From positions 319,583 to 383,582 of the forward strand of contig NZ_JACBYW010000004.1 of the NCBI RefSeq assembly GCF_013408175.1: DNA of 64,000 nt, written 5' to 3'. The notes beneath the pieces were generated by a model. That model was given only the letters and a program-made list of their open reading frames with translations, had not been told where the DNA came from and did no database searches. This DNA is from Actinopolyspora biskrensis. GTDB taxonomy: Bacteria > Actinomycetota > Actinomycetes > Mycobacteriales > Pseudonocardiaceae. Position numbers and translations under genes: made by a program. Of this stretch, positions 3,549 through 28,847 are shown piece after piece; position 1 is the stretch's first letter; each line of letters begins with the position of its first letter.

Positions 3549-3707
3549 CCGCTCACGCGGGGGTGGTTTCGGCCCGTCCGGTTTTAACCTCGTCCTATGG
3601 GTTGAGGCTTCGCGTCGTCTGTCGTCGTTCTGTGTGGGAAAAGTGTGGCTGTGACTGGTTGAAGCGAATAGACCCCACCGTGCGGGTGGAATTCCTATGC
3701 TCTCGGC

Positions 3708-6137
3708 ATGGTCTCCGATGCGGTGCGGTTGCGGGATCGGTTGGTCGAAGCCGCGCGGGTGGGTGAACTGCTCGACGTCAGCGAGGAGTCGGACCGGAAG
3801 GTCCCGGCAGCCGCGATCCGGGCGCTGCTGTTCGGGCTGGACGCCGATGAGCTCGACCCGCGCGGTGTGCGACTGCGGGGTGCGCACGTCACTGGTCAGC
3901 TGGAGCTGACCGACGTGCGTGCCGCGGTGCCGCTGGTGCTGAGTCGGTGCGAGTTCGACGAGGGCGTCGCGGCCGTGCGGGCCCAGCTGCCGCACCTGGA
4001 CCTGTCCGGAAGCAGGTTCCCGCACCTGGACGCCGACGATTCCGGCTGCGAGCACGATGTGCGCCTGCACGGGGTCCGCTGCGAATGGGTGAGCCTGGTC
4101 GATGCCAATCTCGCCGGCGATCTCACGCTGCACGGAGCGTGGCTGGCCGCCTCCGACACGCCCGCCCTGGACCTGTCGGGAGCCACCATCGGCGGCGATC
4201 TGTGCCTCGACGACGAATTCACCGCCAGCTCCGAGAGCCACGGCGGCGCACTACGACTGCTCAGAGCCACCATCGGCGACACGCTCAGCCTGTCCCGAGC
4301 CCGGCTGACCGCCACCAACGGACCCGCCCTGCACGCCGACAACCTCACCGTCGGCAACAACCTGTTCCTCGGCGACGGGTTCACCGCCAACTCCGGCAGC
4401 AGCGACGGCACGCTGCGGCTGCCGGGCGGCAGCATCGCCGGAGAATTCTCCATGTCCGAAGCGCGATTGACCGCCACCAACGGCTCTGCCCTGTTCGCCG
4501 ATGGTCTCAGGGTCAGCAACGGCCTGTTTTTGAGGAAAGGTTTCCTCACCAGCTCCGACAGCCAGATCGGCACGCTGCGACTGTCCGGGGCCAGCATCGC
4601 CGGGCAGCTCAGCCTGAACGGGGCGCAACTGACCGCCACCAACGGGCCCGCCTTGCACGCCGATGGCCTTGCTCTTGAGGGTGATCTGTTCCTCAGCGAT
4701 GAGTTCACCGCCAGTTCTGACAGCCGGCTCGGCACGATAAGACTGCCCGGTGCTCACATCGCCGGGCAGCTCAGCCTGTCCGGGGCACAGCTGACCGCCA
4801 CCAACGGCCCCGCTTTGAACGTTGAGTACTTCAAGGTGGACAACAGCGCGTTTCTCGACGAGGGGTTTACCGCCAGTTCCGACGGTGAAGACACGGTTCG
4901 GCTGATCGGGGCCAGCATCACCGGACAGCTTGCTCTGCGTGGGGCGGAATTGACCGCCACCAACGGGGCTGCTTTGAACGCGGATGGCCTTACCGTTGGC
5001 AGCAGTCTGTCCCTCAACGAGGGGTTTACCGCCAGCTCCGACAGCCAGATCGGCACGCTGCGACTGAATGGGGCCAGCATCACCTGGCAGCTCAGCCTGT
5101 CCGGGGCCCAGTTGACCGCTACCAACGGGGCAGCCCTGCACGCCGAGCGGATCACCGTCGGCAACAACGTATTTCTCAATGAGGGCTTCACCGCCAGCAG
5201 TGACAGCAGCGACGGCGTTCTTCGGCTGTTCGGAGGTCAGATCGCGGGGCAGCTCAGCATGCGCGGGACCCAGTTGACCGCTACCAACGGACCCGCCCTG
5301 CACGCCGACAACCTCACCGTCGGCAACAACGTATTTCTCAATGAGGGCTTCACCGCCAGCTCCGACAGCAATGGCAGCACGCTGTACCTGGACGGGGCCA
5401 ACGTCTCGGGGGATCTGTTCGTGGAGCTGGTGAGTGTCAGCAATACCGGGCAGGAGGGGTTGGTGCTGGATCTGCAGAGTGCTCAGATTTCCGGTGATGT
5501 GGTCCTGCCGCTCGCGGAAGCTCTGGCGGAGTCCGGACAGGAGTGGGGGGTGGACGTGGACGGGTTGCGCTACCCCTTCATCCCGAGGGCGGGGACCTAT
5601 CGCCAGTGGCTGCGGCTGTTGAGCACCCACACCACTGCCTACGCGCCCCAGCCGTATCAGCAGTTGGCCGGTGTCTACCGGGCGGCCGGGCACGACCGGG
5701 AGGCCCGCGAGATCCTCATCGCCCAGCAGCGCGACCTGCGCCGCCGCGGCGAGCTCGACGGGTGGTTCCGCAGGCTGCTGCACCGGCTCAGCGGGGCCTT
5801 CATCGGCCACGGGCACCGCCCCTTCCGCGCCCTGGGCTATCTGGCCGGGCTCTGCGCGACCACCGTCGGGCTGGTGCTGCTGGCCGGAGCGCTCGGACTG
5901 GCCGTGCGGGCCCATCCCAACACCGGGCCGTGCTCGATGGCCGAAAGCATCGGACTCGGCATCGACACCGCCGTGCCCCTGTTGAAAACCGGCGGCGGGA
6001 AACGCTGCGAGATCGCCACCACCACCGGCTGGGGCCAGACCCTCTACCTCGGCAAGTACCTGCTCACCACCCTCGGCTGGGCCTTCGCCACCCTGTTCGT
6101 GGCCGGATACACCGGACTCGTCCGCCGAAACACCTGA
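3708..6137 (+). CDS. Pentapeptide-like beta-solenoid repeat protein with C-terminal membrane domain
   Basis: An 809-residue protein of the actinobacterial family often labelled membrane-associated oxidoreductase, a name without visible support. After about 145 residues of weaker repeats come eight tandem 53-54-residue units (about residues 146-577). Each reads roughly LTATNGPALHADGLTV, then FLNEGFTASS, then LRLSGASIAGQLSLSGA. The alternating small and hydrophobic pattern predicts a right-handed beta-solenoid. A helical linker (YQQLAGVYRAAGHDREAREILI) and two transmembrane segments near the C-terminus (YLAGLCATTVGLVLLAG; TLGWAFATLFVAGYTGL) follow. No catalytic motif is evident. It is the only gene left in the relic element, so it was probably cargo. 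Function unknown. Confidence 0.85.
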   Translation: MVSDAVRLRDRLVEAARVGELLDVSEESDRKVPAAAIRALLFGLDADELDPRGVRLRGAHVTGQLELTDVRAAVPLVLSRCEFDEGVAAVRAQLPHLDLSGSRFPHLDADDSGCEHDVRLHGVRCEWVSLVDANLAGDLTLHGAWLAASDTPALDLSGATIGGDLCLDDEFTASSESHGGALRLLRATIGDTLSLSRARLTATNGPALHADNLTVGNNLFLGDGFTANSGSSDGTLRLPGGSIAGEFSMSEARLTATNGSALFADGLRVSNGLFLRKGFLTSSDSQIGTLRLSGASIAGQLSLNGAQLTATNGPALHADGLALEGDLFLSDEFTASSDSRLGTIRLPGAHIAGQLSLSGAQLTATNGPALNVEYFKVDNSAFLDEGFTASSDGEDTVRLIGASITGQLALRGAELTATNGAALNADGLTVGSSLSLNEGFTASSDSQIGTLRLNGASITWQLSLSGAQLTATNGAALHAERITVGNNVFLNEGFTASSDSSDGVLRLFGGQIAGQLSMRGTQLTATNGPALHADNLTVGNNVFLNEGFTASSDSNGSTLYLDGANVSGDLFVELVSVSNTGQEGLVLDLQSAQISGDVVLPLAEALAESGQEWGVDVDGLRYPFIPRAGTYRQWLRLLSTHTTAYAPQPYQQLAGVYRAAGHDREAREILIAQQRDLRRRGELDGWFRRLLHRLSGAFIGHGHRPFRALGYLAGLCATTVGLVLLAGALGLAVRAHPNTGPCSMAESIGLGIDTAVPLLKTGGGKRCEIATTTGWGQTLYLGKYLLTTLGWAFATLFVAGYTGLVRRNT

Positions 6138-6189
6138 CCAACTACTGCACAGCAAAACGAGCCCAGCCAGGTGCGGGGCTACGTCGCGG

Positions 6190-6257
6190 CCACGGTGCTC
6201 GGCCCTCCGGTGGCCGCGCGGGCGAGTTCTCCTCGGCGGCCCCGGCAGGGACCACCA
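6190..6257 (+). repeat. Dispersed repeat, copy 1
   Basis: Bases 6190-6244 match 17469-17523 with about six differences, sharing GCGGGCGAGTTCTCCTCGGC. The following GGCGGCCCCGGCAGGG...TTGATGA segment matches 17701-17728. The roughly 180 bases between those two parts in the second copy are missing here. The repeat ends where the integrase fragment begins. Confidence 0.6.
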
Positions 6258-6403
6258 TTGATGAGGCCGGGTTGTCGGCTCGTGAGATCGCCGACTACCT
6301 CGGACACGACCGGGGGCGCATGACTCAAGACGTGTACATGAACCGCAAGACGGTCGGCGACACAGCGGCCCGGGCCTTGGATGACCTGCACGATCAGGGC
6401 TGA
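6258..6403 (+). pseudogene. Tyrosine integrase, C-terminal fragment
   Basis: The frame from about 6258 to the TGA at 6401-6403 encodes the last 48 residues of an integrase nearly identical to the intact one at 27590-28738. It includes LSAREIADYLGHD and the nucleophilic Tyr in QDVYMNRK. The N-terminal 330 residues, including the catalytic Arg and HxxR box, are gone. Sequence upstream is the dispersed repeat, so the 5' part was lost by deletion or replacement. It marks the right end of the relic element. Confidence 0.85.
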
Positions 6404-6409
6404 GCAAAA

Positions 6410-6426
6410 GTGGGGGTAAAGTGGGG
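6410..6426 (+). repeat. Tandem GTGGGG motif, putative integrase arm site (relic copy)
   Basis: GTGGGGGTAAAGTGGGG lies just downstream of the integrase fragment. The same motif occurs just inside both ends of the intact element (14222-14238 and 28745-28761). Confidence 0.5.
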
Positions 6427-6462
6427 GTCGATCTTGGTTGTGATCAGCTCCCACGTCTGTGC

Positions 6463-6486
6463 CCTGCCGGAAGGGTTCCCGGCAGG
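6463..6486. terminator. Hairpin within the relic right end
   Basis: CCTGCCGG and CCGGCAGG form a perfect 8-bp stem with an 8-base loop. There is no immediate T-run (AAATTTTT follows ten bases later). It overlaps the degenerate att-like sequence, so it could be a terminator or a by-product of att rearrangement. Confidence 0.4.
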
Positions 6487-6612
6487 ATTCGAAATTTTTA
6501 ACCTCGTCTTAGCGTTCGAGTAGCGCCGGTTTAGTTCCCGCGCTGCCACCTTGGTTCCCGTCAACGACAGCAAGCCGGGAGGTCCTCCCGCGCGAAGTCA
6601 GGAGGCAGCAGG

Positions 6613-7074
6613 TTGCCGGGAAACAAGAAACTGGTCGGAGCGCTCGCGATCGCCGGTGGGGTGCTCGCCCTGGGCAGCACCGCCGTGGCTTTCGGAAGCG
6701 GCGGAGATCCCGCCGCGGAGACTTCCGGGGACGCACCCGCCGCGGTGCGGTCGGCTTCCGAGGGGCACTACACGGGCCCGGACGAGGTCTACACCGGACC
6801 GGATCCCGACGAGGTCTACACCGGGCCGGGCGAGGGGTATCGCGGTCCGTGGCCGGAGCACTGCACGAAGGAGGAACCGGCGGTCAACGGTGACCGGGCG
6901 CGCGACATCGCGCTGGAGCGGGTGCCGCGGGCGAAGGTGATCGAGGTCGAACTCGACCGCTGCTACGGGCTCGAGTGGGAGCTCGAGCTGCGCAAGGGTC
7001 AGACGGAGTACGACGTCACCGTCGACGCGCGCAGCGGCGACGTCGTCGGTTACGAGGAGGACCGGGACGACTGA
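6613..7074 (+). CDS. PepSY-domain secreted or membrane-anchored protein
   Basis: A 153-residue protein starting at TTG 6613, chosen because AGGAGG ends eight bases upstream. The N-terminus is a signal or anchor segment (LVGALAIAGGVLALGSTAVAF). Residues about 50-80 hold degenerate tandem YTGPD/YTGPG units. The C-terminal half is a PepSY domain (GDRARDIALERVPRAKVIEVELDR...YDVTVDARSGDVVGYEED). PepSY domains are found in inhibitors and partners of extracellular peptidases; the partner here is unknown. Two Cys (EHCTK, DRCYG) could form a disulfide. Confidence 0.85.
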   Translation: MPGNKKLVGALAIAGGVLALGSTAVAFGSGGDPAAETSGDAPAAVRSASEGHYTGPDEVYTGPDPDEVYTGPGEGYRGPWPEHCTKEEPAVNGDRARDIALERVPRAKVIEVELDRCYGLEWELELRKGQTEYDVTVDARSGDVVGYEEDRDD

Positions 7075-13776: not shown

Positions 13777-14049
13777 GTTCCGCCCCCGGTTTCCACGACT
13801 CCCACGCTAGCTGCCCCGGGAACACATCACGACCGGTGAGCTTCCCGGATCGGGCCCTGCCGAGTTCAAGATCCCAGCCTCCGGTGTGCGGAGCGCGGAG
13901 AGGTTCCGCGGGACCACTCGTCCGTGGTCGCTTGCCAGCGGGCGGACTTCGGCGGTCGGTTGCTCGTGCTCGGAGTATTCGCACCGGCGGTCCGAACGGA
14001 CGCATCTGATGAGGCCGGGCGTTCTACTAGCGGGATCGCGGCCTATAGC

Positions 14050-14104
14050 CGTGCGCTGGGGTGATGTGCCCTCGGCAGGATTCGAACCTGCGACACCCGC
14101 TTTA
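14050..14104. repeat. Left attachment site (att direct repeat)
   Basis: 55 bp identical to 28793-28847. It contains a truncated tRNA-Arg 3' half (14067-14104: acceptor, T-arm and part of the anticodon stem) that was displaced by integration. It stops at the T of the anticodon region and is followed by element sequence TGGGACGAGG. Confidence 0.95.
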
Positions 14105-14221
14105 TGGGACGAGGCTTCGCATCGTCTGTCGTCGTCGGTCAGTCCTTGGTGTGCGCTGGGGCGGAGCGCGTAGGTGAGGACTTGTTACATGGCGGTAGCA
14201 GTGGACGTTTGCCGTTGTTTT

Positions 14222-14238
14222 GTGGGGGTAAAGTGGGG
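14222..14238 (+). repeat. Tandem GTGGGG motif, putative integrase arm site (left)
   Basis: GTGGGGGTAAAGTGGGG, 118 bases inside the left att. It matches 28745-28761 near the right att with one difference, and is in the same orientation. The position fits arm-type binding sites of a tyrosine integrase. Confidence 0.5.
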
Positions 14239-14252
14239 ACGCTTTGAGGGGA

Positions 14253-14369
14253 TCACATCCTGAACTCGTGGAGTAATGATTCCTCTTCTGGGAGATCAAG
14301 AAGAGCTGGCCTCATAGCCTTCTTGGTGACGCTGGCCAGTGAAAACGCCACTTCTTTGGTCAGCGCCAT
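14253..14369 (-). CDS. Possible 38-aa peptide at the element's left end
   Basis: ATG at 14369 opens a frame reading MALTKEVAFSLASVTKKA and ending LPEEESLLHEFRM. The amphipathic, protein-like composition stands out from its surroundings, but no good ribosome site is visible and the opposite strand is also open. It could be the remnant of a longer gene. Not recognised. Confidence 0.3.
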   Translation of the reverse strand: MALTKEVAFSLASVTKKAMRPALLDLPEEESLLHEFRM

Positions 14370-14770
14370 TTTGTCGCTCGGCGGTGTCATACGGCCTGTA
14401 GGAGACCTGGCGACCACAGGCGACCACATTGACGGATGCGGGAGTTTGGGGCCAATGGGGGGTCTGAGTAGTAGCGGTACAGGATTTGGCGCTAGGCATG
14501 GCTTCGGCTGGTGATCGAGGTGTCGACACACAGCTGTGGAGCGGCTGGGACGGTCCCGGCCCCCTGTTCCCGCTGCTGTAACCAGGAAGGAAGGTCGTTA
14601 CCGGAGGATCCTGCACTCCTACTACTCAGACCCCGGAAGGATTGAACGATGCTGCTGGTCAGCAGGCTGATTTAGCTTGCTCTGGATGCCGGTCGAGTGC
14701 TGATCTCTGACGCTGTGAGCAGCATCGATACTCGCTGGCGTTTAATCTGTCATGACTGTTCCCCAGATCC

Positions 14771-16024
14771 TTACTCCGGGCGGAGGGCCATGCCATGCAA
14801 CTGATGCGGCCCTTCGAGAAGATCAGACATACCCGGCAGGCTCGTGTGCATGAGGCTCTCTCCGGTGCTCTGGTCGTAGATCCGTAGCTCCGGTTCGTCC
14901 TCGTCCGAGGTCTGTGTAATCAGGGCCAAGCGGTCGTCGTGGATGGTCGCGCTGACCTCGCTGCTGCGCGGCACGATCTCGTCTTCGAGAGGGAACTCTT
15001 CGACCGTCTTTCCCGTGTCGATGTCGGTCCGCATGAATGCCTGGCGATCGAGCGAAGCCCACAAAAAGCTCTGGCCGTCGTCCGAGAGAACTGTACTGTC
15101 GAGGATGGCGAGGCCGTAAGAACTGTTCGGCCGAACGCTTTTTCCGTTCGCATCAGTGAGTGGCGTCTCGACCACCTCACCAGTGGAGACGTCCCAGGCT
15201 CGAAGGGCAACCGGCCGCTCAGGATTCCCGCTGTCATCGGCAACCGCAGCCAAGTGGTACATCGTCCCCTCTCGACAGGGCGCATCATGGTTCTGCTGTG
15301 CGGAACCCGAGACCGGCGCCATCCCGACGAGTCGCTCGTTCTGGCCGGCAGCATCCGCTTCGGGCAAGTCTGATGAGTTGGAATCGTCACCGGAGAGACG
15401 AGTCAGCATGAACGACGCCGGCCCATGGGTGCCCCGGATTTCGAGTCCTTGTTTGGAGGCCACCTGCTCATAGTCTCCGGAGGGCTGAGCCAGACCGTAG
15501 ATCTCACCGTCGCAGGAGCTGGCTACTTGGTAGTAGCCCTCGACATTCTTCCGGCTCGATGCGCCGTCAGCATGGGTCACCAGCTGCTCGGTATAGCCGA
15601 CTCCTGTGGTTCCTTCATTGAACAGGCCGATGAAGCCGCCGTCGCCCGTCGGGAACAGCGCGTGCTGTGATGGGGCCTTGGGGCTGTCGGTGGTACGCAG
15701 TCCTTCATCGGTGAGCTGATAGTCCTGCTCAGTGTCGGAGAAGAACAGCCCGTCCTCCGACCACCCGATCGCCGCGGTATCCATGCCGGAGGTTTCGACG
15801 ACGCTGATCTCTCCCACCTCGTCGACCAGGACGAGGTGCCCCGCGGACGAATCCCCGACGTCCTGCGCCGGAGGACTAACGTAGGCGGCAGCCCGAACGC
15901 CGTCCAAGGTCACATCCTGCGGCTCCTCGACATCCGCCGAAGGACCAAAGCATGCCGACGTGGTCAGCAGGACTATGGCGAGCCCAACCGTTGCGCGTGT
16001 AGAAGAGAACGAAGATCGAGTCAT
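14771..16024 (-). CDS. Secreted lipoprotein, possibly beta-propeller
   Basis: A 417-residue protein. ATG 16024 with GGAG nearby gives a lipoprotein signal peptide (VGLAIVLLTTSAC, lipobox TSAC with the lipidated Cys at about residue 25). The mature part has repeating beta-strand blocks around D/S-W or D-G turns (IGWSEDGLFFSDTE; LSDDGQSFLWASLDR; RIYDQSTGESLMH), suggesting a beta-propeller-like fold. GC is visibly below neighbouring core genes. It is cargo of the element. It lies 108 bases downstream of the secreted NlpC/P60-type gene on the same strand and could be its partner. Function unknown. Confidence 0.8.
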   Translation of the reverse strand: MTRSSFSSTRATVGLAIVLLTTSACFGPSADVEEPQDVTLDGVRAAAYVSPPAQDVGDSSAGHLVLVDEVGEISVVETSGMDTAAIGWSEDGLFFSDTEQDYQLTDEGLRTTDSPKAPSQHALFPTGDGGFIGLFNEGTTGVGYTEQLVTHADGASSRKNVEGYYQVASSCDGEIYGLAQPSGDYEQVASKQGLEIRGTHGPASFMLTRLSGDDSNSSDLPEADAAGQNERLVGMAPVSGSAQQNHDAPCREGTMYHLAAVADDSGNPERPVALRAWDVSTGEVVETPLTDANGKSVRPNSSYGLAILDSTVLSDDGQSFLWASLDRQAFMRTDIDTGKTVEEFPLEDEIVPRSSEVSATIHDDRLALITQTSDEDEPELRIYDQSTGESLMHTSLPGMSDLLEGPHQLHGMALRPE

Positions 16025-16132
16025 GTGGCTCCCGAAATATACGAAGCTGCGGTAGAGCATCATCCGCAATTTCGCGGATGATACCCCACCGCATGGAATA
16101 CCTATTGCCCATTACCGGGCGAGCTGTGTCGA

Positions 16133-16924
16133 TCAGAGTGTCTGATAAGTGACGGTGAAGACGTCATCCCGGATGTTTCCTGGGTATACACCGGGTCCGC
16201 CATTGCTGTCGATATCGATGCCGGAAGTCGACTTATAGGCAGCCCAGACAAGCTGAGAACAATTCATATTGGCCGAGTCGGTGTATTTGTTGAACGCGAA
16301 GTTTGAGCGATAATCCTTGTGTCTGTAACTATTGTATGCCCGATCGGCCGCGCTATTCCTGTTCGACTGGGTTGTTGCTACTTTCTGCTTCTTGGTTCCT
16401 GGATCCGTGCTGTAGTTCCACGCGCTGTTGGCGCGACTTAAATCATCGCCGCCTGGAGCTTCGACAATGGTGGCTGTCGTGTAGTAGATGCCGTTGTGAC
16501 CGTGATTGAAGCCCCATGTGGTAGCTGGCGCGTAGAATACATCCCCCTTGTTCCGCCCATACCCCAATGTCCTGCTTCCACTCTCGCCGGGGCTGGACAT
16601 CAATTCTGGAGAGTTTGCGTCCTCCACAGAAGCTTCGGCTTCGTCGAGAGCGTCTTTCGCAGCTTCCTTTGCGCTGATCCCGTTACTCTCGGCGTAGTTG
16701 CGCGCTGCAGATCTCATCTCCTCGGCAGATGTTCCCGGGTTGAGCTCAACGAGGCGCTCGATCGTGTCCTTCTCGGCTGACTCTCCATTGGTTGCGGATG
16801 AAGCCTCCTCACCCGAGTTCTGGTGATTTGTCGGAGCAGCCCCTGCAACGTTGGCACCACCAAGGAGAAGAGCTCCTGCCGCCAAGACGCTGAGCGTCGA
16901 TTTGAACGCCATCCGTTCCGTCAT
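16133..16924 (-). CDS. Secreted permuted NlpC/P60 (YiiX-like) cysteine hydrolase
   Basis: A 263-residue protein with an N-terminal signal peptide (STLSVLAAGALLLGGANVAGAA, cleavage after AGAA). An acidic helical region about 100 residues long follows. The C-terminal domain has the permuted papain-fold order: His first (NHGHNGIYYTTATIVEAPG), then the nucleophile Cys (NMNCSQLVWAAYKS). Such enzymes cleave amide or ester bonds in peptidoglycan, lipids or proteins; the substrate is unknown. The start is ATG 16924; MAFKS a few codons later is an alternative, and neither has a strong ribosome site. Low GC and AT-rich upstream DNA mark recent acquisition. Confidence 0.8.
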   Translation of the reverse strand: MTERMAFKSTLSVLAAGALLLGGANVAGAAPTNHQNSGEEASSATNGESAEKDTIERLVELNPGTSAEEMRSAARNYAESNGISAKEAAKDALDEAEASVEDANSPELMSSPGESGSRTLGYGRNKGDVFYAPATTWGFNHGHNGIYYTTATIVEAPGGDDLSRANSAWNYSTDPGTKKQKVATTQSNRNSAADRAYNSYRHKDYRSNFAFNKYTDSANMNCSQLVWAAYKSTSGIDIDSNGGPGVYPGNIRDDVFTVTYQTL

Positions 16925-17341
16925 ACCGATAATCCAATACAGGTTGTCTTCTTTTATATATCGAACAGCAATCCGCAACATTACATACGCAACAAGCTTT
17001 TTTGTTACTTTTGTAGGAGTGGAATGCATGTTCAATTTTTCTGTTAACTGCCTGCAATAAAAAATTAGCAAACTCGAGCAAGGAGATCAAATATTCAACG
17101 AAAAGTATGATCCTGGTCACATATTTTTAAATTGGTTGCATGTGTGTCATATCTCTAATAAAGGGAAGTGTTTCCACTTGAAGCGGAATAAACAAAAATT
17201 TACTTGTGATATTAAATGCATCCAAATCGATTAATTGATGCAAAAGCACTAGTACCTGTTGCTCATCGATGCCGTATCGAAACAAGAAAAATGCAGGATA
17301 TAAAGGTATATCGGGTTCAATAGTATGAATGGCTTACCTTC
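16925..17341. other. AT-rich non-coding island upstream of the secreted hydrolase
   Basis: About 400 bases with GC far below the rest of the window and no supported gene. It contains several small inverted repeats, for example TGCATC/GATGCA (17217-17242) and AAGTG/CACTT (17166-17179). It must hold the promoter of the hydrolase gene. Such AT-rich stretches are typical targets of Lsr2-type silencing in actinobacteria (inference). Confidence 0.55.
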
Positions 17342-17468
17342 GTTTGCTCTAAGGAGCCCAGCTGGGTGAGTGGCTACGCAGCGGGCGCGGTGGGCTGTCC
17401 GTAGGAAGTGGCTGAGTGAGGGCGTCCACGGCGGAACCCCACCTGCTTCGTCACTGTTGCCCGACCAA

Positions 17469-17735
17469 CCACGGTGCCCGGACCTCCGATGGACGTGCGG
17501 GCGAGTTCTCCTCGGCGGCCCCTGCCGTGGTCTCGGGCCGCCTGCCTTCCGCTCCGCGTCCGGGAAGCCGCCCGCCCACCGCTCCGCGGTCGGCCGCCGG
17601 CGCCGGGACCGGGCTTGCCCGCACGCCCGGCCTCGGCCTGGCCGACCGCACCAGACAAGCGGGCGGGCGGCTCTCCCCGGACGCACCGGGCAAGTAGGCA
17701 GGCGGCCCCGGCAGGGGCCGCCCTTGATGAAGAAA
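17469..17735 (+). repeat. Dispersed repeat, copy 2, with perfect hairpin end
   Basis: Bases 17469-17523 match 6190-6244. Near its end GGCGGCCCC and GGGGCCGCC (17701-17722) form a perfect 9-bp hairpin, and the following TTGATGA also matches the first copy. The roughly 180 bases in between are very GC-rich and non-coding in appearance. The sharp switch from AT-rich DNA suggests an inserted unit. Confidence 0.55.
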
Positions 17736-17783
17736 AGAAACTCTAAACACACGCACGCTGAGACTGCGCGCGGCTCAACTCGT

Positions 17784-18722
17784 TCACTTGTTCAGTAGAC
17801 GCTCCATCGCGTCGGCTGACACAGCGCACCGGAATCCTGTGTCGTCGTCGCACATCGTCTCTGCCGCGTCGTTGAACGAAGACGGCGTGGCGCGATCGAA
17901 CGGACTCGTCCAGGCTCCACCGCGTAGTTCTCGGCGACCTGGTCGGGATGCTGTGGAGAACCACTCCCACACGTTGCCGCACATGTCGTAGGCGCCGTAC
18001 GGGCTCACACCGCTCTGGTATCGGTCGACGGGTGTGGTGGCGCCTATGCCGCTTTCCCGCACGTTGCACTTGGCCGGGGTCGGTTGATCGCCCCACGGGT
18101 AGACCATGCCGCGGGTGCCACGGGCTGCTTTCTCCCACTGCTGCGCTGTCGGAAGTTCCTTGTCCGCCCAATGTGCGTAGGCGATGGCATCCTTCCAAGT
18201 CACGAACACCACGGGATGGTTGGCGAGTTCGGCCGGATACTGCTCGTCCGGCCAGTGTTCCGGTGGCTTGTGTCCTGTCGCTGCGGTGAACCGCGCGTAT
18301 TCGGCATTGCTGACCGGGTGCACGTCGATGTAGTAGGCCGGAACCCAGACCGGCTCGTTGCTCGGTCCGGCGAGGAACACGCTCGCGTCGACCTTGACCA
18401 TCAGGCTGCCGTCGCTCGGGTGGCGTACCTGGGTGCTGCCGATCAGCTCGGTCGTTTCGGAGGAGCCACCGACCACGCGTCCGTCGGTGAGGTACTTGAA
18501 CCGGGCTTGCGTGTCGGAGTCGCTGCGCTGCATGCACGTATCCAGCGCTGCTTGATTCACTGGCCGCGGGGTGACGTTGCCCCCGGCTGCTTCCCACTTC
18601 GAGATCATGCGCTCGCTGACGCCGAGATGAGCGGCGAACTCCCGAAGGCTCATCCGCATGGCGTTACGTAGCGCGCGGACCTCGATTCCCGTCCACTGCT
18701 GAACTGTCGCCAATTGCCGCAT
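17784..18722 (-). CDS. HTH protein fused to an FGE/SUMF1-type domain
   Basis: A 312-residue fusion. Residues about 10-60 are an XRE-like helix-turn-helix (VRALRNAMRMSLREFAAHLGVSERMISKWE). Residues about 90-305 are a formylglycine-generating-enzyme fold (YYIDVHPVSNAEYARF; ELPTAQQWEKAARG; YPWGD; YGAYDMCGNVWEW; LRGGAW; GFRCAV). The Cys pair of true formylglycine generators, expected after LRGGAW, is absent (TSPFDRATPSSFNDAAE). The domain is therefore more likely a ligand sensor or another non-heme iron enzyme. ATG 18722 lies at the edge of a perfect hairpin with no spaced ribosome site, so translation may be leaderless or hairpin-controlled. Confidence 0.85.
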   Translation of the reverse strand: MRQLATVQQWTGIEVRALRNAMRMSLREFAAHLGVSERMISKWEAAGGNVTPRPVNQAALDTCMQRSDSDTQARFKYLTDGRVVGGSSETTELIGSTQVRHPSDGSLMVKVDASVFLAGPSNEPVWVPAYYIDVHPVSNAEYARFTAATGHKPPEHWPDEQYPAELANHPVVFVTWKDAIAYAHWADKELPTAQQWEKAARGTRGMVYPWGDQPTPAKCNVRESGIGATTPVDRYQSGVSPYGAYDMCGNVWEWFSTASRPGRRELRGGAWTSPFDRATPSSFNDAAETMCDDDTGFRCAVSADAMERLLNK

Positions 18723-18752
18723 CTCCCCTGTGCCGCTGTTCCACAGGGGAGA
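18722..18752. promoter_or_regulatory. Perfect 11-bp inverted repeat before the HTH-FGE gene
   Basis: TCTCCCCTGTG and CACAGGGGAGA flank a 9-base loop. It sits in the 51-base gap between the aminotransferase stop and the HTH-FGE start. It could be the regulator's own operator, a terminator for the aminotransferase, or a leader hairpin masking the start. Confidence 0.55.
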
Positions 18753-18773
18753 GTAACGGCTCCATCGCTCGCT

Positions 18774-19550
18774 TCACACCTGTTCAGGTGGGATATCGGC
18801 GTAAAGTTCGCGGAGCTCGTGAATCGCCTTGTGGTCGGTGTTCCACTCGACGCCTTCGATCGACGCTATCGGCCGAACACCGGTGGCCGCGTTGGTCGCG
18901 AAGGCGGCTTCCATGCTCTCGAGGTCGGCGAGGGTCACGGGCTCGGTGGTGATGGGTTGGTCGAGGGCCTGGTTGATCAGGCGCATGGTGGTTCCGGGGA
19001 GCATCTCGGAGCGTGGCCAGATGGTCTGTCCATCGCGGATGAACCCGATGTTCGACGTCGCGATTTCGGAGATCGTCCCGTTCGGGTTGAGGAACAGCAC
19101 ATCGTCGAAACCTTCGCGCTGCGCGGTCCGCCGGTGCCGCATCGCGCCGTAGAGCCCGACGTGCTTCACCTTCGGCTCCTCGCGGGAGTACGAAGCTGCT
19201 TGCAACCGCCAAGGGCTCGGTTCTCCGCGGCTGGCTTCGCGGACGGTCACGAGCACCTGGGGGTCGGCATCGGAGCCGATCGTTCCCAGATTGAGGGCGG
19301 GGTCGAAGACGGTCACTCGCGCCACGGTTCGCTCGTCTCCGGTAAGCACGTTTCGGACATAGGCGCGTACCCGGTCGGTGTCGAGTTCGGTGTTGAACAA
19401 ATGGCGGCAGTCATGTGCCAGGCGTTGCAGGTGGAGCGACAGACCGCGCACCTTGCCGCTTTCGACCAGCATCGATGTGAAGTGCCCGTAGTTCGTCAAC
19501 GCAAGGGTCTTGATCTGGTCAAGCGTGGCGGGGGTGCCGTTCAGTTCCAT
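18774..19550 (-). CDS. Class IV (PLP) aminotransferase-like protein
   Basis: A 258-residue fold-type IV PLP protein related to branched-chain aminotransferase and aminodeoxychorismate lyase. KHVGLYGAMRHRRTAQREGFDDVLFLNPNGTISEIATSNIGF is its core (cited in part: EGFDDVLFLN, ISEIATSNIGF), with PGTTMRLINQAL later. The Lys expected to bind PLP would be in VKHVGLYG. The start at ATG 19550 has AAGGTGG upstream. It is encoded just upstream of the HTH-FGE gene on the same strand, so the two form a cargo operon. Substrate unknown. Confidence 0.85.
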   Translation of the reverse strand: MELNGTPATLDQIKTLALTNYGHFTSMLVESGKVRGLSLHLQRLAHDCRHLFNTELDTDRVRAYVRNVLTGDERTVARVTVFDPALNLGTIGSDADPQVLVTVREASRGEPSPWRLQAASYSREEPKVKHVGLYGAMRHRRTAQREGFDDVLFLNPNGTISEIATSNIGFIRDGQTIWPRSEMLPGTTMRLINQALDQPITTEPVTLADLESMEAAFATNAATGVRPIASIEGVEWNTDHKAIHELRELYADIPPEQV

Positions 19551-19736
19551 ACCGGCCACCTTCCCACTCCACATGGGCTGACTGAAGCTGTGCTGCACCG
19601 AAGTTCAGGGAAAGTTCAGCAGGTCGGATTCGGCAGAAGTTCAGCGGAGGGGTGGGTGCAGGCCAGTACCCAACGGGCGGTTCATATCGCAATCTTGAAC
19701 CATGACAGCGCGATGGAACGACCTTCGGGAGCGGGC

Positions 19737-20075
19737 TTACCGCTGTTGCTCGAGAGCGTCCAGGCGGGCGGACAGGTCCGCGACGGTGGCGCGTAGTTCG
19801 GCGACGGCCGAAGCGAGGTCCTCACTCTTCTGTGCGGGTTCGGCAGGGACCGAGTTCACGAACGTTCCCACGGAGGGGGTTGTCGTGATCCAACCATCTT
19901 CCTCCAGGGCGCTCAACGCCTTCTGCGCGGTCCCGAGTGCCACCTCGTACTTCTCGGCGACTCCGCGGTTGCTGGGAAGGCGGTCGCCGGGACTCAACGC
20001 ACCTGAGCGGATCTCGCGCTTGATGGTCTCGGCGACACGCTGATACGCGGCAAGCCCTGGGGTTTCCTGCTCCAT
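19737..20075 (-). CDS. GntR-family regulator of the element (KorSA-like)
   Basis: A 112-residue protein with a winged HTH (YQRVAETIKREIRSGALSPGDRLPSNRGVAEKYEVALGTAQKALSALEEDGWI, shown in part by SGALSPGDRLPSN) and a short C-terminal coiled coil (LRATVADLSARLDALEQ) instead of an effector domain. The start at ATG 20075 gives the standard GntR N-terminus. It is divergent from the early-gene run, with palindromes between. By analogy with pSAM2 KorSA it should repress replication and transfer genes. Confidence 0.85.
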   Translation of the reverse strand: MEQETPGLAAYQRVAETIKREIRSGALSPGDRLPSNRGVAEKYEVALGTAQKALSALEEDGWITTTPSVGTFVNSVPAEPAQKSEDLASAVAELRATVADLSARLDALEQQR

Positions 20076-20140
20076 GGCAAACAGTCTAACCAAGGCGACC
20101 CACACCGACATAGCTCATCGGGGCACACCCCCTTGCAGAC

Positions 20141-20173
20141 CAATATAGTCCGATGTATATTGATTTATATCGG
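20141..20173. promoter_or_regulatory. Overlapping AT-rich palindromes, GntR operator
   Basis: CAATATA-N8-TATATTG (20141-20162) overlaps CCGATGTATA...TATATCGG (20150-20173) in the 123-base divergent region between the GntR gene and the early genes. The location and symmetry suit the element's GntR repressor. Confidence 0.65.
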
Positions 20174-20198
20174 CAACGAACAACGGAGGTATTGAGCC

Positions 20199-20549
20199 AT
20201 GCTGCGAAACATCCCGGTGCTTCTGGAGGGCTACAAGTTGCAGGTTTCCGAGGAGCCGACGATGAAGACTCGGTTGGATGAGCACGGCAACGAGGTGGTC
20301 GCTACCGATTACCACGGGGCCACGCAGTATGTGGTCAGTCTGTTCGCCAAGCCGCTGGACGAGAACGGCAAGGCTCGCGGCAAGGGCGAAGAGATCAAGG
20401 TGACTCTGGAGGCCGAGCCCGAGGAGATCGACGACGGCACGCGGGTGGAGTTGATCAACCCGCGGGTGTCGCACTGGCAGAACGATTTCGGCAACGGCAC
20501 CACGTCGGGCCTGTCGTGGAAGGCCACCGGGATCAAGCCGGTCCGCTGA
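20199..20549 (+). CDS. AICE conserved hypothetical protein A1
   Basis: A 116-residue protein, first of the early genes, with GGAGGT eight bases before ATG 20199. It shares a pattern with the protein at 20851: V.L..KP.D..G....G.E..VTL......I..G.RVEL..P.V.......G..T.GL..KA. The two are paralogues. It is predicted to be a small all-beta domain. Homologues occur early in Saccharopolyspora-type elements, but I know of no assigned function. Directly behind the GntR operator, so probably derepressed on induction. Confidence 0.75.
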   Translation: MLRNIPVLLEGYKLQVSEEPTMKTRLDEHGNEVVATDYHGATQYVVSLFAKPLDENGKARGKGEEIKVTLEAEPEEIDDGTRVELINPRVSHWQNDFGNGTTSGLSWKATGIKPVR

Positions 20550-20677
20550 TACGCCGATCCGGTTCACATTTCCCTGATTAGTCTTTCCGCCCGTTCGGGC
20601 ATGGTTGTTTGAGAATTCCATAGTGGGGCCGAGCTGTGTCTTTTTCCTGGCGCTTTGGGTGTCGGGGAATGGTGTTG

Positions 20678-20709
20678 ACCCCTGGCCGCGTGGTGTGGCC
20701 GGGGGTTTT
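20678..20709 (+). terminator. Probable intrinsic terminator after the first early gene
   Basis: ACCCCTGGCC pairs with GGCCGGGGG across a 9-base loop (one bulge), followed by TTTT. It lies in the 188-base gap between 20549 and 20738. Confidence 0.5.
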
Positions 20710-20737
20710 CAGGGTTTCCCGACGGAAAGGAGCTTCT

Positions 20738-20827
20738 GTGTCGTTGCGGTATTGCCCGGCGTGTCATTGCGACCGGTGGTTGTATGCGCACTCCGGTGAT
20801 GGTTTCTGTGAATGGAGCACGGTGTGA
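20738..20827 (+). CDS. 29-aa Cys-rich mini-protein
   Basis: GTG 20738 preceded by GGAAAGGAG at ideal spacing opens a 29-residue frame. YCPACHCDRWLY and a later GFCEW give four Cys and two His, enough for one zinc site. It ends 23 bases before the next gene. The strong ribosome site and Cys pattern argue that it is real although very short. Confidence 0.55.
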   Translation: MSLRYCPACHCDRWLYAHSGDGFCEWSTV

Positions 20828-20850
20828 GTGGCGCTCGGAAAGGGGCTTTG

Positions 20851-21168
20851 ATGACGTTGCGGCCGGGGCAGACGCAGAGTGTGCGTTTTGATGGCTTGTT
20901 GATGTGGGTGTCGGATTCTCCGCGTGAGGGATCCAGCGGGAAATTTCGAGTGAGGTTGATCGTCAAGCCGTTTGACGCGCAGGGGGTGGTTTCCCCGGGT
21001 GGGGATGAGGTTCGGGTGACGTTGGACAGTCCTCCGGAGTCGAGCATCGCTGCCGGGGATCGTGTGGAGCTGGTCGAGCCGTATGTGCAGGCTTACGAAT
21101 TCACCACGCACGGAGGGACAGCGACCGGGTTGATTTTCAAGGCGGCTGCGCTGCATCCGGCCTTGTGA
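20851..21168 (+). CDS. AICE conserved hypothetical protein A2, paralogue of A1
   Basis: A 105-residue protein from ATG 20851 (AAAGGGG upstream; a frame from 20812 would overlap the mini-protein). It shares with the 20199 protein the core VRLIVKPFDAQG...GDEVRVTLDSPP...AGDRVELVEP...GGTATGLIFKA. The duplication within one operon suggests related but distinct partners. Function unknown. Confidence 0.75.
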   Translation: MTLRPGQTQSVRFDGLLMWVSDSPREGSSGKFRVRLIVKPFDAQGVVSPGGDEVRVTLDSPPESSIAAGDRVELVEPYVQAYEFTTHGGTATGLIFKAAALHPAL

Positions 21169-21264
21169 GCCGCGTATCGAGCAACGAACGTCCGTGAGAA
21201 TTGTGCCCGGCCAGGTCGCCTACCAAGTTCCCTGGCCGGACTCTCCCAACAGTAGGAGGGCTTC

Positions 21265-21429
21265 ATGTTTATCACAGGTGACGACGAGATTGAAGATCTG
21301 GCCAAGCAGGTCGGGGTGCTGCGTCGTGCTCGGGGCGGTCTGTCGTTTGCGGCCACGTGGGCGGGTGGTTGTGGCACACCGCTTTCCGACTCGACACAGA
21401 TCATGTGCACCCGGTGTGCGCGGCAGTGA
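21265..21429 (+). CDS. Small protein with CxxC motif, 54 aa
   Basis: AGGAGGG six bases before ATG 21265 makes this start convincing. The protein begins MFITGDDEIEDLAKQVGVLRR and ends with IMCTRCARQ, a CxxC pair that with GGCG could bind zinc. The stop overlaps the next ATG (TGATG), so the genes are translationally coupled. Function unknown. Confidence 0.65.
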   Translation: MFITGDDEIEDLAKQVGVLRRARGGLSFAATWAGGCGTPLSDSTQIMCTRCARQ

Positions 21430-21683
21430 TGGTGGCGGAAAGGACGTGGTGGTTCGTGGTGATCTCGGCGGAGAATCCGGCGGTGCGATACCGGAAGCAG
21501 GTCTCGGACGCTCTCAGGCGGGCGCGGGAGTTGCGCACGGAGTTGGACCGGCTGGAGCGTCGGTTGCAGGCGGTGGCGCCAGAGGTGGCGACGTGGTTGC
21601 CATTCGCGGTCACCGATCAGGAGGCGGTGGTGCATCGCTTGTGGGGTGTGCTCGACGATATCGATAATCAGGAGTCGTACTAA
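21429..21683 (+). CDS. Coiled-coil hypothetical protein, 84 aa
   Basis: The start at ATG 21429 overlaps the previous stop. It begins MVAERTWWFVVISAENPAVRYRKQVSDALRRARELR (pattern only) and has a heptad-like stretch LRRARELRTELDRLERRLQAV predicted to form a coiled coil. The TAATG at its end couples it to the next mini-frame. Not recognised; part of the early-gene block. Confidence 0.65.
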   Translation: MVAERTWWFVVISAENPAVRYRKQVSDALRRARELRTELDRLERRLQAVAPEVATWLPFAVTDQEAVVHRLWGVLDDIDNQESY

Positions 21684-21745
21684 TGCCGATGGGTTGTCAC
21701 GGTCTGGGCTGTCTGTGCCTGAGTCGTTTCGGGAAGGAAGTGTAG
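21683..21745 (+). CDS. 20-aa Cys-rich mini-ORF
   Basis: TAATG overlap with the preceding gene and a stop three bases before the next start place this tiny frame exactly between two genes. It encodes MPMGCHGLGCLCLSRF plus four residues, with three Cys and one His. It may be a translated coupling leader or a micro-protein. Confidence 0.4.
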   Translation: MPMGCHGLGCLCLSRFGKEV

Positions 21746-21747
21746 GC

Positions 21748-21948: not shown

Positions 21949-21972
21949 GAAGGACACGAAGGAGGGTGACTG

Positions 21973-22418: not shown

Positions 22419-22433
22419 CCGCCGATACGGAAC

Positions 22434-22474: not shown

Positions 22475-22495
22475 CATGCGTGAGAAAGGATGTGG

Positions 22496-23995: not shown

Positions 23996-24014
23996 CCCGC
24001 TCGAACACGGAAAC

Positions 24015-24057: not shown

Positions 24058-24082
24058 TACCTCACTCATGGAGGCAGGTTTC

Positions 24083-25874: not shown

Positions 25875-25893
25875 CATGCTGGGAGGTGGCTGC

Positions 25894-27408
25894 ATGGTTC
25901 TTCCCGTCTCCCCGGAAGTGGACCGGCTGACCCGCCGGATGCGCTCGCCGGACTTCGAGGACTGGAAACGCAAAGTCAAGTCGGTGGCCGGCTGCACTCG
26001 CCCGGTGCACCTGTCCGGCCGGTGGGCCATCCAGGACACCCACAGCGGGGCGGAGCTGGCCGCGCGCTCGGGCCAGATCATGACCCCCTGCGGCAACCGC
26101 CGTGAATCGGTCTGCCCGGCCTGCTCGGACCGCTACGCCGCCGACGCGTTCCACCTGCTGCGCGCGGGCCTGTCGGGGGGCTCCAAAGGTGTTCCCGACA
26201 CCGTGGCCGAGGCTCCGCGGGTGTTCGTCACCCTGACCGCGCCCTCCTTCGGTGCCGTGCACAACCGACGGGTGAGCCCGACAACGGGCAAGACCATGCC
26301 GTGTGCCTGCGGCTCGTTTCACCACGAGCACGACCCGGCCCGCGGGCAACCGATCGAGCCCGACTCCTACGACTACCTCGGGCACGTGCTCTGGCAAGCC
26401 CACGTCGGCCCGCTCTGGAACCGGTTCACCACCTATCTCAAGCGGCATCTGGCCCGGGCCGCCGGGATCGGCTCCCGCGAGTTCGGCCACCACGCTCGCG
26501 TGTCGTATGCCAAAGTCGCCGAGTACCAGCGCCGCGGCGTGATCCACCTGCACGCGGTGCTCCGCCTCGACGGGCCAGCCGGTCCCACCGACACGCCCCC
26601 GGCCTGGGCCACCACCGAACTCCTCACCGAGACGATACAGACTGCGGCGCGGGCAGTGTCGGTCACCGCCCCCGAAGTCGAGGGGCAGCGGCGCGTACTC
26701 ACCTGGGGCGAGCAACTCGACGTGCGCCCCATCCGCGCGGCCAACGCCTCCCAGCTCGAAAACGAGCGGGGTGAGATCACCGAGGATCGGCTGTCGTCCT
26801 ACGTGGCCAAATACGCCACCAAAGGCACCTCAACGAGCGAGGCAATCGACAAGCCGATCCGCTCACAAGGACACCTCGACCTGCTCGCCATCAACCCGCA
26901 CCACCGGCGCATCATCCAAACCGCCTGGAACCTCGGCGCCCCAGTGGCCTGCCCGGACTGCCACCCGAACCACCCGCACGCCGGGGACGGCTGCCCCTGC
27001 CACTCCAGGACCGGTAGCTGCCCGACCTGCCACGGCGGCGGCCAGGTGGCCCGCACCACCCGCGAGCACTACCTACGTCCCGACACGGCCCTCGAGGTGG
27101 ACCCGCTCGACGCGCTCAAAACCCGCCGGTGGGCCCACATGCTCGGCTTCCGCGGGCACTTCCTGTCCAAGTCCAAGCACTACAGCACGACCTTCACCCA
27201 GATCCGGGCCGACCGGCGCCAATACCGGCACGACTCGGTGCTCGACGAACTCGGCGTGACCGACGACCAGATCACCGTGATCAACCACTGGGACATGGTC
27301 TCCGTCGGCCACGACTCACCGGAGGAAACCGAACTCGCCGAAGCCATCGCCCACCGGATCCGGCTGGACCGCCAGCAACGCTACGAACACGAGAAACGGA
27401 GGAACTAA
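25894..27408 (+). CDS. repSA: Replication initiator, RepSA family (HUH endonuclease)
   Basis: A 504-residue rolling-circle initiator. ATG 25894 has GGAGG seven bases upstream, which decides against ATG 25876. It has Cys-rich regions (CGNRRESVCPACSDRY; CPDCHPNHPH...CPCHSRTGSCPTCHGGG), an HUH motif in VIHLHAVLRLDG (His 218 and 220), and the candidate tyrosines in YVAKYATK (303 and 307). It replicates the excised circle before transfer. It is followed by xis and int in the pSAM2 order, with two bases to xis. Confidence 0.92.
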   Translation: MVLPVSPEVDRLTRRMRSPDFEDWKRKVKSVAGCTRPVHLSGRWAIQDTHSGAELAARSGQIMTPCGNRRESVCPACSDRYAADAFHLLRAGLSGGSKGVPDTVAEAPRVFVTLTAPSFGAVHNRRVSPTTGKTMPCACGSFHHEHDPARGQPIEPDSYDYLGHVLWQAHVGPLWNRFTTYLKRHLARAAGIGSREFGHHARVSYAKVAEYQRRGVIHLHAVLRLDGPAGPTDTPPAWATTELLTETIQTAARAVSVTAPEVEGQRRVLTWGEQLDVRPIRAANASQLENERGEITEDRLSSYVAKYATKGTSTSEAIDKPIRSQGHLDLLAINPHHRRIIQTAWNLGAPVACPDCHPNHPHAGDGCPCHSRTGSCPTCHGGGQVARTTREHYLRPDTALEVDPLDALKTRRWAHMLGFRGHFLSKSKHYSTTFTQIRADRRQYRHDSVLDELGVTDDQITVINHWDMVSVGHDSPEETELAEAIAHRIRLDRQQRYEHEKRRN

Positions 27409-27590: not shown

Positions 27591-28738
27591 TGCCACGCCC
27601 ACCGCTGCCGTTGGGTACGCATGGTGAGATTCGGTGCTACAAGGTCGCCGAGAAGAAGTTCCGAGCGCGGACCAAGTATCGCGACTATGACGGTACCGTG
27701 CGACACGTCGAGCGCATGGGGACGAGTAAGACCGGTGCCAAGGAGAACCTGAAGCAAGCGTTGCGGGACCGTGCGCGGGCTGTGGCCGGTGATGAGGTCA
27801 CCGCGCGAAGCAAGCTCGTCGACTTGGCGCAGATGTGGCTTCGGGAGTTGGACGAGTCAGACAAGGCGATGCGGACCAAGCGCACCTACCGCGATGCGTG
27901 GGAGCGGGATCTGGCTCAACCGGTGGGAGCGCTTCGGGTGTCCGAGGTGACGGTCTCGGTAGCCACTCGGGTGCTCCGGGCGATTCACGACAATGCCGGA
28001 TCGGGCAGCGCCAAGCACGCCAAGGTGGTGCTGTCGGGAGTGCTGGCGATCGCGGTCCGTCACGACGCGCTCCCGAGCAATCCGGTCAACGAAGTGACCT
28101 TGCCGAAGGCGAGCGGCTCGCGGTCGAGTAATCAGAAGACCGTGATCACGCGGGCGGAATACCTCGGCCTGCGCAAGCATCTCGCTGCCTCGACGAAGGC
28201 GAACCGACGTGACCTGCCGGACGTGGTGGACGCGTTGGCCGCGCTCGGCTGTCGCATCGGCGAATTGCTCGCGCTGGACTGGTCCAAGATCGACCTACAA
28301 GCGGGCACGATCAGGATCGAAGGGACCGTGATCCGGGAGAAGGGCGTGGGCCTGTTCGTGCAGGAGCACACGAAGTCCTCGGCGGGCATGCGCACGGTCA
28401 CCGTTCCCGCGTGGTTCGTGGATCTGCTGCGGCGGCGTCGTGATGCCGCGGAAACCGAGTGGGTGTTTCCGACCGCCTCGGGCACGCTGCGCGATCCCGA
28501 CAACACCCGGGCGGATCTCCGCGCAGTGCTGACGGATACCGAGTGGCTTGGGCTGCACCCGCACGCCTTTCGGCACCTGGTCGCCACTCGTCTCGATGAG
28601 GCCGGGCTGTCGGCTCGCGAGATCGCGGATTACCTCGGGCATGATCGTGTCAGCATGACTCAAGACGTGTACATGAACCGCAAGACGGTCGGGGACTCGG
28701 CGGCCCGAGCCCTGGACGACCTGCACGATCAGGGCTGA
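27590..28738 (+). CDS. int: Site-specific tyrosine integrase
   Basis: A 382-residue recombinase. The N-terminal arm-binding and core-binding domains lead to a catalytic domain with Arg 222 (GCRIGELLALDW), HxxR (HPHAFRHLVAT, His 325, Arg 328), LGHD and the nucleophile Tyr 361 (VYMNRK). All catalytic residues are present. It ends 72 bases from the tRNA att site, with the tandem GTGGGG motif between. The last 48 codons are duplicated in the relic at 6258-6403. Confidence 0.96.
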   Translation: MPRPPLPLGTHGEIRCYKVAEKKFRARTKYRDYDGTVRHVERMGTSKTGAKENLKQALRDRARAVAGDEVTARSKLVDLAQMWLRELDESDKAMRTKRTYRDAWERDLAQPVGALRVSEVTVSVATRVLRAIHDNAGSGSAKHAKVVLSGVLAIAVRHDALPSNPVNEVTLPKASGSRSSNQKTVITRAEYLGLRKHLAASTKANRRDLPDVVDALAALGCRIGELLALDWSKIDLQAGTIRIEGTVIREKGVGLFVQEHTKSSAGMRTVTVPAWFVDLLRRRRDAAETEWVFPTASGTLRDPDNTRADLRAVLTDTEWLGLHPHAFRHLVATRLDEAGLSAREIADYLGHDRVSMTQDVYMNRKTVGDSAARALDDLHDQG

Positions 28739-28792: not shown

Positions 28793-28847
28793 CGTGCGCT
28801 GGGGTGATGTGCCCTCGGCAGGATTCGAACCTGCGACACCCGCTTTA
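28793..28847. repeat. Right attachment site (att direct repeat)
   Basis: 55 bp identical to 14050-14104. It overlaps the 3' 38 bases of tRNA-Arg, so the element supplies the tRNA end that restores the gene. Confidence 0.95.

Follow-up and report, generated by a model that had tools for sequence, protein, structure and literature searches.

Actinomycete integrative and conjugative elements (AICEs) of the pSAM2 type carry a RepSA replication initiator, an FtsK-type transfer protein, and a tyrosine integrase, as outlined in a section of PMC3218068. A passage of PMC9513070 describes decayed AICEs of Streptomyces in which two direct repeats enclose cargo genes and part of an integrase, and whose sites, within a glycosyltransferase gene, are empty in related strains. 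Elements that have lost the genes for integration and transfer and retain attL and attR are called cis-mobilizable elements (CIMEs), by a definition given in part of PMC5704250. Here we analyzed a remnant, element A, at positions 3582-6511 of a stretch of 64,000 nucleotides (nt; the window) of contig NZ_JACBYW010000004.1 of Actinopolyspora biskrensis, 7.5 kb from the left att site (14050) of an intact AICE. Its anatomy is of a known kind and matches the published decay of AICEs: like the Streptomyces remnants it has cargo and an incomplete integrase framed by direct repeats, with empty sites in relatives, and like a CIME it has lost integration and transfer genes and kept attL and attR. It differs from the former, as they appear in that passage, by an origin-anchored deletion, mixed ends of the transfer RNA (tRNA)-Arg type, and a target-derived core; it differs from a CIME in being solitary and in having arm repeats that differ between its left and right ends. 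The history that we consider probable is the insertion of an AICE at a 16-bp core, together with its shortening by a deletion running from the nick site of its rolling-circle origin to codon 335 of its integrase gene. No description of an origin-to-integrase deletion in AICEs was found in the open-licence literature searched.

Element A is an insertion: it is absent from all six relatives whose flank could be located, and the closest of them has one copy of the repeat. The left flank was searched in 10 genomes of the genus (the own genome and G001 to G009), of which G001 and G004, with no flank match, and G007, with matches only at an E value of 8.9e-4, were uninformative. In G003, the closest relative, the left flank aligns up to window position 3597 and the right flank from 6496 (L010). 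The two overlap by exactly 16 bp, and the empty allele therefore holds a single copy of the repeat. The flanks also adjoin without element A in G008, G002, G005, G009, and G006. A preliminary description of this DNA had already framed the element with this 16-bp direct repeat (3582-3597 and 6496-6511) and proposed searching for an empty site with one copy, which G003 provides; neither of the contrary outcomes that it named, a solenoid gene at the locus without an integrase or the lack of any empty-site allele, was encountered. The two copies differ by a single C/T (15 of 16 positions identical), and the empty allele of G003 has the T form, as in the right-hand copy. The repeat is real, beyond chance expectation, with two matches in the window at up to 3 mismatches against 0.02 in shuffled sequences. 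Among 249 genomes of the family, the 16-mer occurs in element A (two copies) and in the empty site of G003 (one copy), and nowhere else.

The empty sites bear directly on the idea that the large gene of element A, which encodes a predicted beta-solenoid protein, is native to the locus and that the integrase tail came later. The gene is intact and shows ratios of nonsynonymous to synonymous substitution (dN/dS) of 0.31 to 0.49 in five comparisons with aligned relatives (four of them on parts of the gene), values that point to a gene in use, with repeats that make the estimate rough. Yet it is absent from this locus in six of six informative relatives, and its homologs in the genus often adjoin att sites or integrase remnants: in L047, in L048 (by a tRNA-Met), in L049 (in an array with a tRNA-Lys), and in L051, none having been detected beside the gene of L050. 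A native gene is contradicted by the empty sites unless several precise losses occurred in parallel, and we regard it as highly improbable.

The intact neighbor (14050-28847) serves as the reference for what element A has lost. It occupies a tRNA-Arg(CCT) gene with 55-bp att cores and encodes RepSA (PF20199), an FtsK/SpoIIIE-type protein, a GntR regulator, and a tyrosine integrase, i.e., the three modules of pSAM2-type AICEs at a tRNA 3' end. Its order is left end, cargo, module, core genes, and integrase, where the module is a 405-bp sequence (17341-17745) that separates the left cargo from the core genes. Most of this module forms one long and very stable hairpin (z score of -8.2), directly followed by CTTGATGAAGAAAAGAAACTC. 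Near-full copies were found in L047, L052, and L054, and positions 154 to 405 in L103. A search of window positions 1 to 30000 against Rfam returned the tRNA only. A repeat at 14007-14045 (74% identity over 39 nt) was considered as a further integrase remnant and set aside as too weak.

In element A, the order is core, CCT-type left end, arm repeat pair, solenoid gene, collapsed module, integrase tail, second arm repeat pair, TCT-type spacer with tRNA 3' sequence, and core. The tyrosine integrase gene beside one att site is present as a remnant of 47 codons and the stop, one codon fewer than first counted. It corresponds to residues 335 to 381 of the intact integrase (numbered as P0002), is 86.5% identical to it over the tblastn stretch, and is not functional. 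We found no rep or tra gene in element A, the list of open reading frames (ORFs) of 3582-6511 being the solenoid gene and overlapping frames only, and the search of the genome for RepSA gave a single protein, in the intact neighbor. Because RepSA, RepAM, or Prim-Pol and FtsK-type transfer genes are absent, element A is a remnant, a decayed AICE rather than an AICE. Relative to pSAM2-type elements, it keeps the ends, a stub of the module, and the integrase tail, and it does not lie in a tRNA. The preliminary description had called it a decayed sibling about 8 kb from the intact element; it is of the same broad kind and decayed, but its ends are mixed, and it is no simple sibling.

The collapsed module and the joint that follows it (6235-6266) were missing from that first account. 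The joint reads ...GGCAGGGACCACCATTG^ATGAGGCC..., where the foot of the module (CCGCCCTTG^ATGAAG) meets integrase codon 335. These two points are about 10.9 kb apart in the intact neighbor and, judged by it, the deletion removed about 10.9 kb comprising transfer, replication, and most of the integrase, and left attL, cargo, module stub, integrase tail, and attR. In the history proposed above, a RepSA-type AICE with a solenoid gene in its left cargo slot would have inserted at the 16-bp core, in the gap that separates a two-component system from a PepSY gene. A deletion, before or after insertion, would have joined the nick site of the origin (CTTG^AT, at the hairpin foot) to codon 335. RepSA would nick CTTG^AT, and the 3' end or the attached strand would be joined further along the element, such that nicking or aborted rolling-circle synthesis may generate the deletion. 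The second end may lie in the integrase gene of the survivors through selection, because a break further left would free transfer or replication genes from regulation, and one further right would disrupt attR and the tRNA.

At rolling-circle origins such as those of pC194 and M13, illegitimate recombination yields deletions that are anchored on one side at the nick site. The joints reported here likewise have one end at the nick site; they differ in that they come from integrated elements, belong to several genera, and have their other end, where it could be identified, in the integrase gene. Single-stranded DNA has been linked with illegitimate recombination in a passage of PMC5703833.

Similar joints, judged by eye at CTTG or a close variant, were found in other elements. 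The module foot or a similar hairpin abuts the integrase at codon 193 in L070/L072, at codon 231 in L163 and L164, and near codon 335 in L087 and L099. An automated scan of 26 integrase remnants, which we chose and which are not all remnants, placed a hairpin followed by xTTG at 7 breaks, against a background of 4.6% (P = 1.4e-4), and four of the seven are joints also seen by eye (element A, L072, L163, and L164). In the opposite direction, 13 motifs with non-canonical followers (L204 to L216) and 3 controls were picked by eye among the matches listed. One follower (L216) was a variant of the tail, and in 7 of the other 12 integrase sequence takes over at the nick (L204, L205, L206, L207, L209, L210, and L211). 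The integrase starts 8 nt after the nick at codon 231 in L204, 15 nt after it at codon 109 in L205, and 0 to 12 nt after it near codon 290 in L211, while an open frame with PF00589 support reaches the nick in L206, L207, and L209. The follower in L210 has the same integrase tail as L074, and that in L212 stops about 140 nt before a tRNA. Codon 335 was considered as a special break point, given that element A, L078, L087, and L099 all break nearby, and rejected, as partial C-terminal matches start at many positions (e.g., 100, 142, 183, 215, 246, 277, 300, and 331). Since the integrase breaks at so many positions, the fixed side seems to be the module. The integrase tail of L078 (G008:C2 near 1837 kb) is, by eye, fused in frame to a small ORF (MTKTEDDR...), giving an open frame of 115 codons.

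The 3' part of the module is its most widely kept piece and reads GCGGCCCC-loop-GGGGCCGC(C)CTTGA(TGA/ACA)AGWARAGAAAC in most of the matches listed. With the 405-bp module as query, 53 of 150 family genomes (23 of 46 genera) gave matches, often to the 3' foot only and in some genomes to other parts only. The pattern of hairpin plus CTTG matched 134 of 386 genomes, in 26 of the 46 genera sampled, and the reversed control gave 9 matches by our count. The motif is linked to the gene of a rolling-circle initiator in one orientation: RepSA lies 2.0 to 13.4 kb downstream on the same strand for 33 of 47 typed canonical motifs and is wrongly placed for none, among the matches listed. A listed integrase was found 0 to 16 kb downstream on the same strand for 20 of 72 typed foot-reaching matches of the module (18 of them at 7.5 to 12.1 kb), and never on the wrong side or strand. 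The sequence CTTG^AT falls in the conserved region, and the base after CTTGA is A or C in many genera. The foot resembles the nick site of pC194-type replicons, the double-strand origin of pC194 reading TCTTTCTTATCTTG^ATAATA when the sequence printed in a section of PMC5037232 is complemented. The hairpin-CTTGAT motif is thus a candidate double-strand origin for RepSA, and the hairpin with CTTGATGAAG a candidate nick site with predicted cleavage between G and A. Published views of the initiator family differ: te Poele et al., as reported in part of PMC3218068, assigned pSAM2 to the pC194 group by its nick site and Rep motifs, and that paper itself places the Rep motifs nearer to phiX174.

Several observations weigh against a deletion anchored at the origin. 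The foot in element A is ATTG, its hairpin is collapsed, and the joint lies within a shared TGATGA; an ordinary microhomology deletion would therefore also fit this joint. Most of the 26 remnants show no module at the break and, among the seven automated matches, two (L078 and L166) look fortuitous and one (L156) is ambiguous. Three of the joints seen by eye (L070, L087, and L099) failed the automatic criterion, and L070 and L072 represent one joint in two species. In L120 and L121, which have no tblastn match, the module is joined to the integrase through another homology of 9 bp upstream of the nick. The non-canonical followers were chosen by eye and 4 of the 12 (L208, L213, L214, and L215) showed no integrase; L206 has no tblastn match to the integrase queries and rests on Pfam, the long integrase frame of L207 may be nearly complete, which makes its truncation less certain, and L210 was matched by eye only. 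The control L217 keeps an intact foot and has a truncated integrase about 450 nt further, counter to strict anchoring. Finally, 14 of the 47 typed motifs had no RepSA among the matches listed, and the same section of PMC3218068 finds the motifs of pSAM2-type RepSA nearer to those of phiX174 Rep than to those of pC194.

Some of these points would be expected under ordinary decay, where the hairpin is no more than an unstable palindrome or a terminator, and slippage or microhomology at its foot sets off the deletions, with no action of RepSA. Such decay would be consistent with the great stability of the hairpin, with its collapse in element A, L049, and L053 and its truncation in L048 (which has the first part only), with the microhomology at the joint of element A, and with the joints of L120 and L121 at the left base of the hairpin. 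Slippage, however, would predict ends scattered over the stem, whereas L072, L163, L164, L087, L204, and L211 keep the foot up to CTTG and depart from the canonical tails 0 to 1 nt later. Moreover, the tail after CTTG is conserved between genera, for which a mere terminator has no need. We consider ordinary decay unlikely and favor the deletion from the nick site. A broader proposal, to which we give a little less than an even chance, is that RepSA-type elements routinely prune themselves, abortive rolling-circle events joining the nick site to the integrase and producing stable cargo islands in one step. Element A would be one such product, possibly integrated when already short by the integrase of a resident relative, with its right core taken from the target. 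Decayed integrative elements usually pass for wreckage. Should many of them have been made by one reaction at their own replication origin, the loss of mobility would have a specific cause, cargo islands could be recognized from the short signature of a hairpin-CTTG fused to an integrase tail, and the fixation of mobile cargo in actinobacterial chromosomes would become directly testable.

The two ends of element A are of different types. The left end is 91% identical to that of the intact element, in agreement with the 30 of 33 bases reported before, and a 25-bp part of it has 2 matches where 0.00 are expected; the outermost 31 bp on this side share the tRNA-Arg(CCT) type of the intact element. 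The arm repeat on the left is a candidate arm site of the integrase, and the tandem GTGGGG motif reported at the right end was found as the other arm pair. The right spacer, CACGTCTGTGCCCTGCYGGAAGG, is shared with remnants of the tRNA-Arg(TCT) type, which were found in the own genome, G003, and G008 (TCT-type loci compared: L134, L128, and L124). Over its whole 200 nt, the right end is 78% identical to the intact CCT element and 76% to the TCT remnant of the own genome, the two being about equally close. By these comparisons, element A is a mosaic, with a left end like that of tRNA-Arg(CCT) elements and a right spacer like that of tRNA-Arg(TCT) elements. The mixture may have arisen by exchange with other tRNA-Arg elements. 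At tRNA-derived cores in L047, L049, and L053, two elements meet right end to left end, and their arm repeats are unlike each other. In L087/L100 (G009:C19 near 236 kb), the integrase tail runs through the arm repeat into left-end sequence of such elements, an arrangement that looks as if the arm repeats of neighboring elements had recombined and removed the att site.

The right-hand core carries target sequence in place of tRNA sequence. We obtained 36 listed matches to CGGCAGGATTCGAA in the genus, of which 30 were read as loci. This sequence continues as tRNA-Arg in 29 of them, 19 with a tRNA-Arg gene predicted by ARAGORN and 10 without, which were taken as att copies. Element A alone continues otherwise, as ATTTTTAACCTCGTCTTA: 18 nt of tRNA-derived sequence are replaced, 16 of these by the chromosomal target. 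The "damaged att-like sequence" of the preliminary description is thus att-like, but replaced rather than merely damaged. This core could possibly stem from an attP that an earlier visit had retargeted, from a staggered break that led to a duplication, or from conversion of attR by an empty allele.

Plain action of the integrase at a secondary site, with a tRNA-type attP and a 16-bp repeat that is an accident of overlap, would be in line with the TTA at which the core ends, as do tRNA-Arg cores, and with the 16 nt from GGATTCGAA to the crossover TA, matching tRNA-type sites. Integrases of one family also occupy both tRNA-Arg(CCT) and tRNA-Arg(TCT): the intact integrase, at the former, is 89% identical to G007:C7:233614-234750, at the latter, and target choice therefore shifts between isoacceptors within one integrase family. 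Integration of SGI1 at a secondary site, as treated in part of PMC2297512, is comparable in that an integrase-bearing element lies at a non-primary intergenic site. Such an event leaves unlike left and right repeats, as in SGI1, whereas both junctions of element A carry target sequence and the right one lacks CCTGCGACCTAGAGATTA. We find the plain secondary-site event improbable. The 16-mer is unique to this locus in the family genomes, so its right-hand copy is probably locus-derived, and the T shared with the empty site would fit a target-site duplication without integrase (a staggered break repaired with element DNA) or the conversion, once insertion had occurred, of attR by the empty allele. 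The left boundary, however, falls at the crossover expected for the integrase (TA|TGGG, as in the intact element), suggesting integrase action, and we hold such a duplication or conversion to be possible but less likely than not.

Features of element A and of the intact neighboring AICE (positions in the window).
Feature	Positions	Strand	Remark
16-bp direct repeat, left copy (attL core, C variant)	3582..3597	+	single copy in the G003 empty site
Left end, tRNA-Arg(CCT) type	3596..3628	+	30/33 to 14103-14135
Left arm-type repeat pair GTGTGGGAAAAGTGTGGC	3632..3649	+	type also found ahead of the solenoid genes in L047 and L051
Cargo gene, predicted beta-solenoid protein of 809 amino acids with helical C-terminal part	3708..6137	+	intact ORF
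Collapsed origin-like module (module 129-185 at 6190-6246 and 361-390 at 6235-6264 kept; hairpin center lost)	6156..6264	+	
Joint left by the deletion, ATTG^ATGAGG, where module foot (CTTG^ATGAAG) and integrase (TCGATGAGG) meet; position equivalent to the nick, 6260/6261	6257..6266	+	
Integrase remnant, last 47 codons and stop; catalytic Tyr region kept, upstream part gone	6260..6403	+	
Right arm-type repeat pair (tandem GTGGGG) GTGGGGGTAAAGTGGGGG	6410..6427	+	
Right end spacer, tRNA-Arg(TCT) type, ending in tRNA 3'-end sequence CGGCAGGATTCGAA (6480-6493)	6428..6493	+	
16-bp direct repeat, right copy (attR core, T variant as in the empty site)	6496..6511	+	
Insertion target, four 11-bp units 5' of the PepSY gene	6497..6540	+	spacing kept in 7/7 sites read
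Intact AICE, attL core (55 bp)	14050..14104	+	
Intact AICE, uncollapsed module: large hairpin, then CTTG^ATGAAGAAAAGAAACTC; nick equivalent 17726/17727; candidate RepSA double-strand origin	17341..17745	+	
Intact AICE, RepSA replication initiator	25876..27408	+	PF20199, E 1.6e-145
Intact AICE, tyrosine integrase (reference for the remnant)	27593..28738	+	
Intact AICE, attR core, in tRNA-Arg(CCT) 28809-28882	28793..28847	+	

The cargo gene survives, as the preliminary description had it, as one large intact frame. The predicted structure of its product (mean predicted local distance difference test score of 89.3) has a long beta-solenoid at about residues 30 to 600, followed by helices. Other copies of the gene in the genus are partly broken. 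No relatives of the protein were found in PADLOC, PHROGs, PDB sequences, or NCBIfam, and Foldseek with the predicted structure gave no match at an E value of 0.001 or below, the best ones being mainly beta-helices. Pfam gave three matches, two of which look spurious, with the pentapeptide match below its cut-off. A weak Foldseek match to KCNQ4 prompted the idea that the C-terminal helices might be two transmembrane segments with a pore loop; from these helices we would guess that the protein might be a membrane-anchored scaffold or sensor.

Element A lies between a sensor kinase gene, which ends at 3548, and a gene encoding a PepSY domain (6613-7074), i.e., between the two-component system and the PepSY gene. 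The target falls within four 11-bp units, TTTAACCTCGT CTTAGCGTTCG AGTAGCGCCGG TTTAGTTCCCG, a pattern with a single occurrence in the window and a constant spacing of units in the own genome and six relatives. OmpR-type regulators bind sites with characteristic direct-repeat spacing. Since the spacing of the units resembles such repeats, they may represent an operator for the response regulator of the adjoining two-component system. The 16-bp duplication preserves the full set of units before the PepSY gene.

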